A stretch of DNA of 64,000 nt. Origin: Strix aluco. Its lineage: Eukaryota; Chordata; Aves; Strigiformes; Strigidae. The position numbers were made by a program, and so were the translations under genes. Of the stretch, positions 2,199-5,586 are shown piece after piece. The notes beneath the pieces are model-generated. The model saw only the letters and a program-made list of their open reading frames with translations, had not been told where the DNA came from and did no database searches. Each line of letters opens with the position of its first letter. Position 1 is the first letter of the stretch. The stretch lies in NCBI RefSeq assembly GCF_031877795.1, contig NC_133954.1, forward strand, positions 8,981,258-9,045,257, in the 5' to 3' direction.

Positions 2199-2263
2199 AT
2201 GCTTTTTTGGCATGGTCAACCTGATTACTGGTCCAGTGCTGGGGAGATGTACCCCATCTCCAG
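2199..2263 (+). CDS. CP2-like exon 1
   Basis: The ATG has A at -3. It encodes residues 1-22, [19 protein letters not shown] then IS, with an arginine split across the CAG|GTACC junction. The TFCP2L1-type N-terminus fixes the start. Confidence 0.85.
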
Positions 2264-5200
2264 GTACCCCCCCCCCCCAAAATTTAAACCCTCCCTTGGT
2301 TTTAGGGAAACTGAGGCACCACTAAGTGCCCCCCCCCCGCGCGGGGGGGTGGTGTTTTTTTCCCGCAGGGACCCCCCCGTTTTGCCTTACCTGAAGCAGG
2401 AGGAGCCCAACGGCATCTCCACCTCGCACCCCCCCTGCCCCCCTTTCCAGTACGTGCTCTGCGCCCCAACTTCTCCCGCCGTCCGGCACCACGAGGAGAC
2501 CCTCACCTACCTCAACCAGGGTGAGTTGGGGGCACCCCCGGGGAGGGGGGGGGGAGGAACGACACCCCCCCATTTGGGGGCTCAGCATCCATTTTTGCCC
2601 CCCCCCCCCATCCTCATCGCAGGGCAATCGTATGAGATCCGGATGATGGGGAACCCCCGGGTGGACCCCGCCGGGGAGGGACGGAGGATGATGAAGGTGA
2701 GATGGAGATGGGGGGGGGGGTGTGTGTGTGTGTGTGTGTCCCCCAAAAAAAACCTGGGGTGAAGCCTTGGGGCAAAGCTCTGACCTTAAGTCCCAGTCCA
2801 GCCCCAGTTCAGCCCCAGTTCAGTCCTGGTCCAGTCCCAGCCGAGCCCCAGTTTAGCCCCAGCTCAGCCCCAGTCCAGGCCCAGTTCACCCCCAGTCCAG
2901 CCCCAGTTCAGTCCCAGTTCACCCCCAGTCCAGCCCCAGTCCAGCCCCAGCTCAGTCCCAGTTCAGTCCTGGTCCAGTCCCAGCCGAGCCCCGGTTTAGC
3001 CCCAGCTCAGCCCCAGTCCAGCCCCAGTCCAGGCCCAGTCCAGCCCCAGTCCAGCCCCAGTTCACCCCCAGTCCAGCCCCAGTTCAGCCCCAGCTCACCC
3101 CCAGTCCAGCCCCAGTTCACCCCCAGTCCAGCCCCAGTCCAGCCCCAGTTCACCCCCAGTCCAGCCCCAGTCCAGCCCCAGTCCAGCCCATCTCTCCGTG
3201 GGCGCGGGCCTGATCCTGCGGCGCAGAGCGTGGTCCGGGTGGTCTTCCACGACCGGCGGCTGCAGTACTCGGAGCAGCAGCAGCTGGAGGGCTGGCGGTG
3301 GAGCCGCCCGGGCGATCGCATCCTCGACATCGGTGGGTGCCCGCGGCGGCAGGGGGGGGCTGGGGGGGCCCTGGGGGGGCCACGCTCACCCCCCTCCCGC
3401 AGACATCCCGCTCTCCGTCGGCATCCTCGACCCCCAAATCCACCCCACGCTGCTCAACACGGTGGAGTTTCTCTGGGACCCCTCGAGGCGGACGTCTGTC
3501 TTTGTGCAGGTGGGAGCCAGGCCTGGGGGGGGGGGGGGGCTGGGGGGGGCTGGGGGGGGCCACGGCGGCCGCCCCCGACCCCGCTCTCCCCGTCCAGGTT
3601 CACTGTATCAGCACCGAGTTCACGCTGCGGAAGAACGGGGGGGAGAAAGGCGTCCCCTTCCGCATCCAGATCGACACCTTCGGGGCGGGGGGCAAGGGGG
3701 ACCCCCCCGAGCACCTCCACTCTGCCAGCTGCCTCGTCAAAGTGTTCAAGGTATTGGGGGGGGGGACACACCGGTGACCCCAGGGTGACCAGTGCCCCCC
3801 CCCCCCCACCCCATTCCCTGGCAAATCCCGCTCTGAGCGTGGGGCAGCACCTCGGGTAGGGGGGTGGATGGATGAGGGTCTGGGTGCTCGGGGGGTGGGT
3901 GTATGTGGGTCTGAGCACCCCGGGGGTCGGTGTGGGGGGGTCTGGGGTTCCCCCCCCTCGGCTGACGGCCCCCGGCGCAGCCCAAAGGGGCTGACAGGAA
4001 GCAGAAGACGGACCGGGAGAAGGTGGAGAAGCAGCCGGCGCTGGAGCGGGAGAAATTCCAGCCGGCCTACGAGAGCACGGTGCTGGCGGAGGTGGGGGCC
4101 GGCCCTGGCACCCCCCTGCTGCGGGCCGGGGTGCCCCCCCGGGACCCTGCACCCCCTGACCCCCTCCCTCCGTCCTCAGTGCACCCCGTGGCCAGATGCG
4201 CTGGGTGCCCCTCACAGCCCCCCCAGCACCCCGGGGCTGCCGTCTCCTCACCCCTTCAAGCTGCTGAGCCCCGAGAGGTAAGTGGGCCCCCCCCGGGCCC
4301 CCACCCGCTGCTGGGGTCCCCCACTCAGCCCCGGCCCCCCTCCCCGCAGGGTGTGTGTGTCACCCGCCTGCGCTGCCGAGAGCCCCGCGGAGAGTCCTGG
4401 CGAGGTGAGGGTGCCATCGGTGCAGCCTCCTGCACCCCAACAGCCCCCCAGGACCCCCCCTCAGGAGAGGCTGGCTGGGCTGAGAACGTCCCCGCTCGGT
4501 TCATGCCCCGGCTGAGGCTCCGCTCCCGCTGCCGGCAGGCGCTGAGCCCCTGCGCATCCCCCCTGGAGACGCAGCAGTGGCTGCACAAACGCCGCTTCTC
4601 TGCCTACGCCCGGGTCTTCGCCAACTTCGCAGGTGAGGCCGCAGGCAGCAACGGGGACGGGAGGGGGGGGTCCGAGCCAGCCCCTGCAGCTCTGACCCCC
4701 GCCCTGACCCCCCCCGTCCACAGGCGCTGACCTGCTGAAGCTCTCCCGCAGGGACCTGATCCAGATCTGCGGAGCCCCCGACGGCATCCGCCTCTGCAAC
4801 GCGCTGATGGGCAGGTGGGCTCCGACGGCCTGTGGGGCTCCTCGGTGCCTCATTCCGGGGACCCCAGGGAGGCTCCGCGGTGCTTGGCCGCATCCTGCAC
4901 CCCCTACCCGACCCCCCCTCTGTCCCCACAGGTGCCTGCGGCCTCGACTGACCCTCTACGTGTCGCGGGAACCCGCCGGCGGGGCTGAGGGCGCAGAGGA
5001 GGGATGCTCAGGTGAGCGGGAGGGCGCGGGGCAGCGCAGGGATGGAGGGCCCACGCTCACTGTCCCGTCCCTGTCCCCACCCTGTCCCCAGGGCTGTACC
5101 AGGAGTTGCACCTGGAGGAGCTGACGGTGGCCGAGCTGAGCGGGAAACTGGCCGAACTGCTGGGGCTGCCCGTGGCCCAAATCCTGCGGGTGTCCCGGCA

Positions 5201-5586
5201 GGGCCCCTCCGGCATCCACATCCTCGTCAGCGACGCGGTAAGGACCAGGGGGGACACCTGGGCGCTGCCCGGTGCTGGACCCCGCAGCCCTTGGGGTCCC
5301 CAATCTGCTCCCAGCAAGAGGCTCAGCCCCCACGGGTGCCCCTCGCTGCAGCGGGACGGGGGCCCAGGCTCCAGGATGGGACACGCAGCCCCAACCTGGC
5401 CCCCCCTCCCCTCGCCCCGTGGCCCCGCAGATGATCAGGAACCTCCTGGACGAGACGTGCTTTGTGGTGGCCATCAGCAAAGGTAACGTGGTGGCCAGGG
5501 GCTGCGGGCAGGGCCCGATGGCCCCGGCTGAGCCACGTCTCTGGGCAGCGCACGGCCCCGAGGGGTACGACCTGGTGCTGCGGTAG
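2199..5586 (+). CDS. CP2/LSF-family transcription factor, TFCP2L1-like paralogue
   Basis: Complete 15-exon gene whose splice phases all agree, giving 473 residues (human TFCP2L1 is 479 from memory). The N-terminus [11 protein letters not shown] resembles the TFCP2L1 start MLFWHTQPE. Residues ~40-220 form the Grainyhead/CP2 DNA-binding domain ([75 protein letters not shown]). Residues ~220-256 hold the basic [14 protein letters not shown] segment. Residues ~315-370 are the SAM-like oligomerisation module ([25 protein letters not shown]). The C-terminus ([23 protein letters not shown]) is the dimerisation domain. The basic tail exon that separates UBP1 from TFCP2L1 is absent, as in TFCP2L1. Identity to TFCP2L1 looks well below orthologue level. 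Leu214 replaces the conserved Gln (LSF Q234). It is expected to be nuclear. It is not TFCP2, UBP1 or TFCP2L1 itself; no accepted symbol is assigned. Confidence 0.9.
2369..2520 (+). CDS. CP2-like exon 2
   Basis: Residues 22-73. The acceptor is TTTCCCGCAG. It carries [12 protein letters not shown] (cf. LPIFKQEEP in the family) and the first DNA-binding-domain strands [13 protein letters not shown] and [10 protein letters not shown]. The donor is CAGG|GTGAG. Confidence 0.92.
2623..2696 (+). CDS. CP2-like exon 3
   Basis: Residues 73-97, [19 protein letters not shown] then RRMMK. The QSYEIR core is invariant in the family; the following linker is divergent. The donor is AAG|GTGAG. Confidence 0.9.
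2721..2739 (+). repeat. (TG)n microsatellite after a G run
   Basis: Nine TG units follow a 10-base G run just inside intron 3 of the CP2-like gene. Confidence 0.9.
2791..3190 (+). repeat. 11-bp minisatellite in intron 3 of the CP2-like gene
   Basis: About 36 imperfect copies of an 11-bp unit (CCAGTCCAGCC, with TTCAG and TTCAC variants) fill most of intron 3 and end about 35 bp before exon 4. There are no stops over three unit phases, so it makes spurious long reading frames ([15 protein letters not shown] on plus). Confidence 0.9.
3227..3332 (+). CDS. CP2-like exon 4
   Basis: Residues 98-133, [20 protein letters not shown] followed by [15 protein letters not shown]. The strongest family match in the gene. 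The acceptor is GCGGCGCAG and the donor ATCG|GTGGG. Confidence 0.93.
3403..3509 (+). CDS. CP2-like exon 5
   Basis: Residues 133-168, [19 protein letters not shown] then [27 protein letters not shown] is the TFCP2L1 version (TFCP2 and UBP1 have IPMSVGIID). Confidence 0.93.
3598..3750 (+). CDS. CP2-like exon 6 (carries the Q234-equivalent Leu)
   Basis: Residues 169-219. [20 protein letters not shown] is conserved. The normally conserved loop after DTF (NENGEY in relatives) is replaced by GAGGKGDPP. The codon at 3733-3735 is CTC, giving SCLVKVFK where relatives have SCQIKVFK. Confidence 0.93.
3981..4091 (+). CDS. CP2-like exon 7
   Basis: Residues 220-256, [18 protein letters not shown] then [19 protein letters not shown]. 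It ends at GAG|GTGGG in phase 0, the site where UBP1 inserts an extra segment and TFCP2L1 does not. Confidence 0.92.
4180..4277 (+). CDS. CP2-like exon 8
   Basis: Residues 257-289. It begins CTPWPD, the counterpart of CSPWPD in TFCP2 and TFCP2L1, followed by a Pro/Ser-rich linker. The donor is GAGAG|GTAAG. Confidence 0.88.
4350..4404 (+). CDS. CP2-like exon 9
   Basis: Residues 289-307, [18 protein letters not shown], a low-similarity linker. Supported by phase and splice sites rather than homology. Confidence 0.7.
4539..4632 (+). CDS. CP2-like exon 10
   Basis: Residues 308-339, ending with the start of the SAM-like module: [20 protein letters not shown] then FAG. Relatives read QQWLHRNRFS. 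Confidence 0.92.
4724..4814 (+). CDS. CP2-like exon 11
   Basis: Residues 339-369, [20 protein letters not shown] then IRLCNALMG. Core of the SAM-like fold. The acceptor is CCGTCCACAG. Confidence 0.93.
4932..5011 (+). CDS. CP2-like exon 12
   Basis: Residues 369-396, [20 protein letters not shown] then a Glu/Gly-rich linker. LRPRLTLYV matches family VRPRLTIYV. Confidence 0.9.
5092..5237 (+). CDS. CP2-like exon 13
   Basis: Residues 396-444: [20 protein letters not shown] and [18 protein letters not shown]-terminal dimerisation region; relatives read YRQGPTGIH. Confidence 0.92.
5431..5482 (+). CDS. CP2-like exon 14
   Basis: Residues 445-462, [17 protein letters not shown]. Relatives read MVQNFQDESCFVLSTIK. 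Confidence 0.9.
5549..5586 (+). CDS. CP2-like exon 15 and stop
   Basis: Residues 462-473, [12 protein letters not shown] then TAG at 5584-5586. Corresponds to the family end DGYHIILK. Confidence 0.88.

Follow-up and report, generated by a model that had tools for sequence, protein, structure and literature searches.

We report a gene of the LSF/CP2 family of transcription factors in the genome of Strix aluco, located at positions 2199-5586 on the forward strand of a 64,000-nucleotide stretch of contig C24 (NC_133954.1, positions 8981258-9045257), hereafter the window. This window gene is very likely an intact fourth LSF/CP2 gene, the HOXB-side copy from the early vertebrate genome duplications, which was kept here and is unlisted in human and mouse. 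The letter HOXB for the HOX cluster on C24 is our assumption. The intactness of the gene, its family membership and its chromosomal slot are established; its age and function we infer.

The window gene is complete and consists of 15 coding exons with 473 codons plus the stop (1422 nt) and no internal stops. The 14 introns are 66-530 bp long each, and GT-AG borders were found in 14/14. Three Pfam domains matched the predicted protein above their curated cut-offs: CP2 (177.7 bits, cut-off 25), SAM_3 (60.8 bits, cut-off 22.6) and GRHL1_C (58.2 bits). An earlier note on the window had claimed a complete, intron-bearing CP2 gene of 473 codons, and the exons, the GT-AG introns and these LSF-type domains bear this out. 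The CP2 DNA-binding domain (DBD), the SAM domain and the exon-intron structure all place the gene in the LSF/CP2 subfamily, and the SAM domain is said, in part of a survey, to set LSF apart from GRH proteins (PMC2873413). Intron 3 is mostly filled by a degenerate 11-base tandem repeat of about 36 copies (window 2792-3189).

A search of the whole genome (1.41 Gb, 202 contigs) with the window-gene protein, in which only the best candidates were scored (n = 42), gave 37 matches. These resolved into four LSF-type genes, and three Grainyhead-like (GRHL) genes were matched weakly, once each. The three LSF-type genes other than the window gene are presumably TFCP2L1 (CRTR-1, LBP-9), UBP1 (LBP-1a/b, NF2d9) and TFCP2 (CP2c, LSF, LBP-1c), judged by conserved residues. 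Since genes fitting all three names were located elsewhere in the genome, the window gene is none of them, as the earlier note had held. The CP2, SAM and C-terminal regions align with those of each paralogue. Full-length identity was 264/462 to TFCP2L1, 260/471 to UBP1 and 257/468 to TFCP2, and the window gene is thereby nearly equally distant from all three, which are 331/474, 355/472 and 334/476 identical to one another. The closest solved relative was the CP2 DBD, PDB 8y7v (E 1.6e-111), with GRHL2 and GRHL1 next at about 1e-22. GRHL1-3 have a related CP2-type DBD, but the DBD chains of GRHL1 and GRHL2 were only 62/183 and 64/181 identical to the window gene, against 148-159/216 for the LSF types.

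All 13 internal exons of the window gene had a matching AG..GT exon with open joined frames in each of the three paralogues, in scans fixed to the window-gene phases. Eight of the 13 (152, 106, 107, 153, 111, 94, 91 and 52 nt) were of equal length in all four genes. These matches are not attributable to chance. The pattern MLFWHxQP, taken from the first coding exon, had three exact matches genome-wide, in the window gene and on the 5′ sides of UBP1 and TFCP2L1, and none in a reversed control; 12 further places differed by one mismatch. Each exact match continues to a donor site with a remainder of two bases, and the phase is therefore identical. At UBP1 this exon (C1 157770158), with its donor, lies 5′ of exon 2 and is probably the first exon, possibly an alternative one. 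TFCP2 differs in that its first exon, in the stretch examined, is MAWALKL. The MLFWH exon was considered as a sign of sisterhood with TFCP2L1 and rejected, because UBP1 carries it too; it is probably ancestral and common to several LSF genes.

The chromosomal positions carry most of the dating. Pfam Hox9_act matched four places in the genome, at C1 140.9 Mb, C27 1.67 Mb, C24 7.99 Mb and C6 25.5 Mb, and the four LSF-type genes occupy these same four contigs, one on each. The distance to HOX9 was approximately 17 Mb for UBP1, 11.5 Mb for TFCP2L1, 1.0 Mb for the window gene and 0.9 Mb for TFCP2. With genes placed randomly in proportion to contig size, a one-to-one match has P ~4e-6, a figure that ignores the gene density of small chromosomes, so that the true chance is higher. 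The FBXL20 probe detected, besides FBXL20 in the window, a close second gene on the reverse strand at C1 157.822-157.836 Mb, taken as FBXL2. This gene is convergent with UBP1, its nearest matched exon lying about 5 kb beyond the UBP1 coding end. Two more matches of the probe, at C1 82 Mb and on C5, had identities of 38 and 35%. With the STAC2 probe a single other gene was found, on the reverse strand at C1 156.554 Mb, 1.2 Mb upstream of UBP1, and was taken as STAC. The arrangement STAC(−) UBP1(+) FBXL2(−) thus has the same order and orientation as STAC2(−) window gene(+) FBXL20(−). UBP1 shares these neighbours with the window gene and differs from it in lying on another HOX9 contig; the window gene is also compact (3.4 kb) and GC-rich. 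TFCP2L1 has its own locus on C6, and no STAC- or FBXL-family gene was found near TFCP2L1 or TFCP2. Pdcd6ip, Clasp2, Ubp1 and Fbxl2 are named together in a portion of a mouse-human study (PMC2715105).

The window gene accordingly has the positional marks of an ohnologue, with one LSF gene per HOX contig and both FBXL2/FBXL20 and STAC/STAC2 duplicated beside UBP1 and itself. Synteny is strong within-genome evidence for a whole-genome-duplication copy, and the proposal of such a HOX-linked copy in the earlier note is supported by position: the known genes lie elsewhere, the HOX9 contigs match one-to-one and the STAC/FBXL neighbours are mirrored. This positional match holds under whichever process produced the fourfold regions.

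The window gene has kept 214 of the 292 columns at which the three paralogues agree. Identity to the paralogues was 69-75% in the DBD, 59-69% in the SAM domain, 42-45% in the C-terminal region and 32-34% in the linker. Conservation thus tracks function, and selection over the long term is clear. In a simple simulation, which assumed 28 splice dinucleotides and indels at 8% of substitutions, the probability of an intact gene under neutrality was 0.113 at 1% divergence and 0.013 at 2%. A recently inactivated gene, with its frame intact and selection gone, would be compatible with an origin by genome duplication and would suit the fast evolution, the GC-shifted composition and the substitution of a residue that 9/9 relatives checked have as Gln. 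It is nevertheless very improbable given the 14 introns and 473 codons that remain intact, the candidate TATA box and polyadenylation signal, and the far higher identity of the DBD than of the linker.

Several observations weigh against a copy as old as the genome duplications. In full-length quartets maximum likelihood favoured pairing with UBP1 (approximately unbiased (AU) test, p = 0.836), and the AU test rejected neither TFCP2L1 (0.234) nor TFCP2 (0.064). On the DBD set the AU test rejected 0/6 placements at 0.05, a late TFCP2 duplicate (0.221) included, and the bootstrap supports around the window gene in the DBD tree were 36 and 37. The window-gene branch was 0.78 long against 0.17-0.19 in the paralogues. 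The GC content at third codon positions was 0.87 in the window gene, 0.74 in TFCP2 and 0.49 and 0.38 in the other two paralogues, and the fraction of Gly, Ala, Arg and Pro was 0.317 against 0.203-0.215 in the paralogues. STAC3 was not found with a 55-residue STAC2 probe of the genome, and CLASP1/2 were not located by a PF12348 search. A study represented here by part of its text concludes against two genome duplications (PMC6585022). The PF12348 (CLASP_N) matches on C3 were rejected as CLASP; six near-equal matches span about 215 kb (21.955-22.171 Mb) and are perhaps a recent tandem array.

Of the full-length alternatives, the TFCP2 pairing was kept by the AU test and excluded by both the bootstrap proportion from resampled estimated log-likelihoods (bp-RELL) and the confidence set of expected likelihood weights (c-ELW). 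The informative columns pairing the window gene numbered 9 with TFCP2L1, 12 with UBP1 and 5 with TFCP2, and single-gene changes numbered 78 in the window gene against 13, 24 and 15, respectively. The best DBD trees with GRHL outgroups joined the window gene to the TFCP2 clade or to TFCP2L1 in a near tie; bp-RELL excluded the pairing with UBP1 as well as one of the outgroup placements. The full-length and DBD trees disagree, and neither fixes the placement or the age of the window gene, although a fourth, HOX-linked copy is compatible with them. Because the trees leave the placement unsettled, the dating rests mainly on position. The long branch is partly explained by an amino-acid composition that is GC-driven.

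It is very improbable that TFCP2, TFCP2L1 or UBP1 was duplicated later, within this lineage, and that the copy evolved fast and came to lie beside FBXL20 by chance. The long branch fits such a history, as does the late TFCP2 duplicate kept by the AU test on the DBD. The lowest raw proportion of synonymous differences (pS) was also to TFCP2 (0.632, against 0.930 to TFCP2L1 and 0.971 to UBP1). TFCP2 has a private state at five DBD columns, in every case shared by PDB 8y7v; the window gene has that state at one of them, the state of the other two paralogues at one and its own state at three. However, when codons were shuffled within amino acids the expected pS to TFCP2 was 0.673 (standard deviation 0.024), with 17/300 shuffles at or below the observed value, and the low pS is mostly due to the GC-rich codons used by both genes. 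For TFCP2L1 and UBP1 the corresponding counts were 294/300 and 254/300, the observed value being above the shuffled mean for both. Synonymous similarity to the paralogues is little or none, as for an old split. At full-length private columns, moreover, the other-two state was commoner in the window gene than the private state for all three paralogues (private against other-two, TFCP2L1 9 and 13, UBP1 12 and 24, TFCP2 5 and 15), and states unique to the window gene were found at 18, 25 and 16 columns, respectively. The introns are present and the exons match those of the paralogues; by size, C24 would receive a randomly placed gene with P ~0.0075, and a place adjoining FBXL20 would be hit far more rarely. 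No more probable is an older LSF gene that split before the genome duplications and lies in a HOX-linked region by chance, for although the near-equal distance to the three paralogues agrees with it and the AU test kept placements outside all three (0.072, 0.095), a fourth copy accounts for the one-to-one HOX9 match and the mirrored FBXL/STAC neighbours without any further duplication or loss.

The DBD of the window gene differs from its relatives at one of the sites altered in a dominant-negative CP2c. The residue corresponding to Q234 of TFCP2 is Leu (residue 214) in the window gene, and Lys is retained at the K236 site. Gln was present at the Q234 site in 9/9 relatives checked (the three paralogues, PDB 8y7v, GRHL1, GRHL2 and the three GRHL genes of the genome). 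Dominant-negative CP2c carries Q234L together with K236E, according to sections of PMC10667816. Among the tetramerisation-domain residues of CP2c named in the same sections (PMC10667816), the window gene keeps E332, W336, R341, R347, R376 and A380; R339 is replaced by Lys, and R402 is aligned with a gap.

According to parts of PMC2908540, CP2-family proteins are predicted to bind a CNRG-N6-CNRG motif and to assemble into homo- and heteromeric complexes, presumably tetrameric; CRTR-1 was observed in DNA-binding complexes together with CP2, NF2d9 and altNF2d9, and was sumoylated at K30 in FKQE. The counterpart of FKQE in the window gene is LKQE at residue 31, a SUMO-type KQE motif in common with TFCP2L1. 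By analogy with the known members, the window gene most likely recognises CNRG-N6-CNRG-like sites through its CP2 domain; its SAM and C-terminal domains would form homomeric tetramers or mixed ones with TFCP2, UBP1 and TFCP2L1, and SUMO added at LKQE would tune the activity. The changes in the DBD, Leu at the Q234 site and an altered loop, suggest that it binds DNA less strongly or differently, perhaps as a modulating subunit. A natural modulating, partly dominant-negative subunit, with its tetramer domains kept and with mixed tetramers (with TFCP2, UBP1 or TFCP2L1) whose DNA binding would be weak or directed to other sites, is an unlikely but conceivable role; we offer it as a lead, Q234L being just one of the two changes in the laboratory mutant.

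The features of the window and the related genes are listed below. Within the window, the names STAC2, FBXL20 and MED1 are presumed, STAC2 from sequence and gene order and the other two from sequence. No STAC2 SH3-exon motifs were found within 20 kb to the left of the window. Between STAC2 and the window gene lies a near-perfect palindrome (window 1862-1976; 29-nt arms, 97%, with 57 nt between), whose spacer shows a further inner palindrome; it is either a genuine hairpin or a fold-back introduced by the assembly. A minisatellite inside the FBXL20 span (window 22270-22910) has a 13-base unit in about 49 copies that are 99% alike, and several of its frames are open.

Table. Coordinates of the window gene, its parts, its neighbours and the related genes of the genome (window positions unless a contig is named).
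Feature	Location	Strand	Remark
CP2/LSF-type transcription factor gene, exons 1-5	2199-2263, 2369-2520, 2623-2696, 3227-3332, 3403-3509	+	
CP2/LSF-type transcription factor gene, exons 6-10	3598-3750, 3981-4091, 4180-4277, 4350-4404, 4539-4632	+	
CP2/LSF-type transcription factor gene, exons 11-15	4724-4814, 4932-5011, 5092-5237, 5431-5482, 5549-5586	+	includes stop
First coding exon, MLFWHGQP...	2199-2263	+	resembles MLFWH exons of TFCP2L1 and UBP1
Exons 2-7, SUMO-like motif LKQE (K31) and CP2 DBD (residues 47-237)	2369-4091	+	
Exons 10-11, SAM domain (residues 309-366)	4539-4814	+	tetramerisation region in CP2c
Exons 12-15, C-terminal domain (residues 373-472)	4932-5586	+	Pfam GRHL1_C
Candidate TATA box, TATAAA	2105-2110	+	pattern match; 94 bases 5′ of ATG; sole one within 1281-2300
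Candidate polyadenylation signal, ATTAAA	5850-5855	+	pattern match; about 260 bases past stop
STAC2 5′ coding exons (C1-domain exons about 464-574 and 649-732; start codon 1278-1280)	464-1280	−	head to head with window gene
FBXL20	11170-52430	−	name presumed from sequence; convergent with window gene; outer limits approximate
MED1 large C-terminal exon	56235-59507	−	name presumed from sequence; stop-to-stop frame
TFCP2L1	C6 14.05-14.08 Mb		conserved residues
UBP1	C1 157.77-157.82 Mb		conserved residues
TFCP2	C27 2.56-2.58 Mb		conserved residues; DBD 212/217 identical to PDB 8y7v
Three GRHL genes	C1 23 Mb, C3, C26		one weak match each

The name CP2like3, used in one survey of the family, we take to mean GRHL2, and both CP2like3 and BOM we take to be Grainyhead types. 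The lists seen from that survey hold CP2, LBP1a, LBP9 and Grainyhead types for human, and CP2, CRTR-1, NF2d9 and BOM for mouse (PMC2873413); a human family table, likewise an extract, holds TFCP2L1, TFCP2, UBP1 and GRHL1-3 (PMC6585022). These give some support to the absence of a fourth LSF gene in human and mouse, neither list, as far as their extracts go, having been drawn up to show absence. Loss in mammals overall we infer from the human and mouse lists together with human gene order. In the openly licensed literature searched, mostly at listing level, no published description of a fourth LSF gene was recognised, and the window gene may be a new LSF/CP2 member unless it is already annotated in gene databases. 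A recent avian survey required, according to part of its text, that a duplicated gene have a human orthologue (PMC12954441), and because of this requirement the class of the window gene falls outside it.

The review and family lists, as far as their extracts show, count three genes in the LSF family, and roles in ionocytes and kidney and in pluripotency and cancer are reported for it. With a fourth copy surviving, the HOX-linked LSF quartet is complete and the fate of that copy's function can be tested in lineages without the gene, and studies in birds that assume three LSF genes may be confounded by a fourth.

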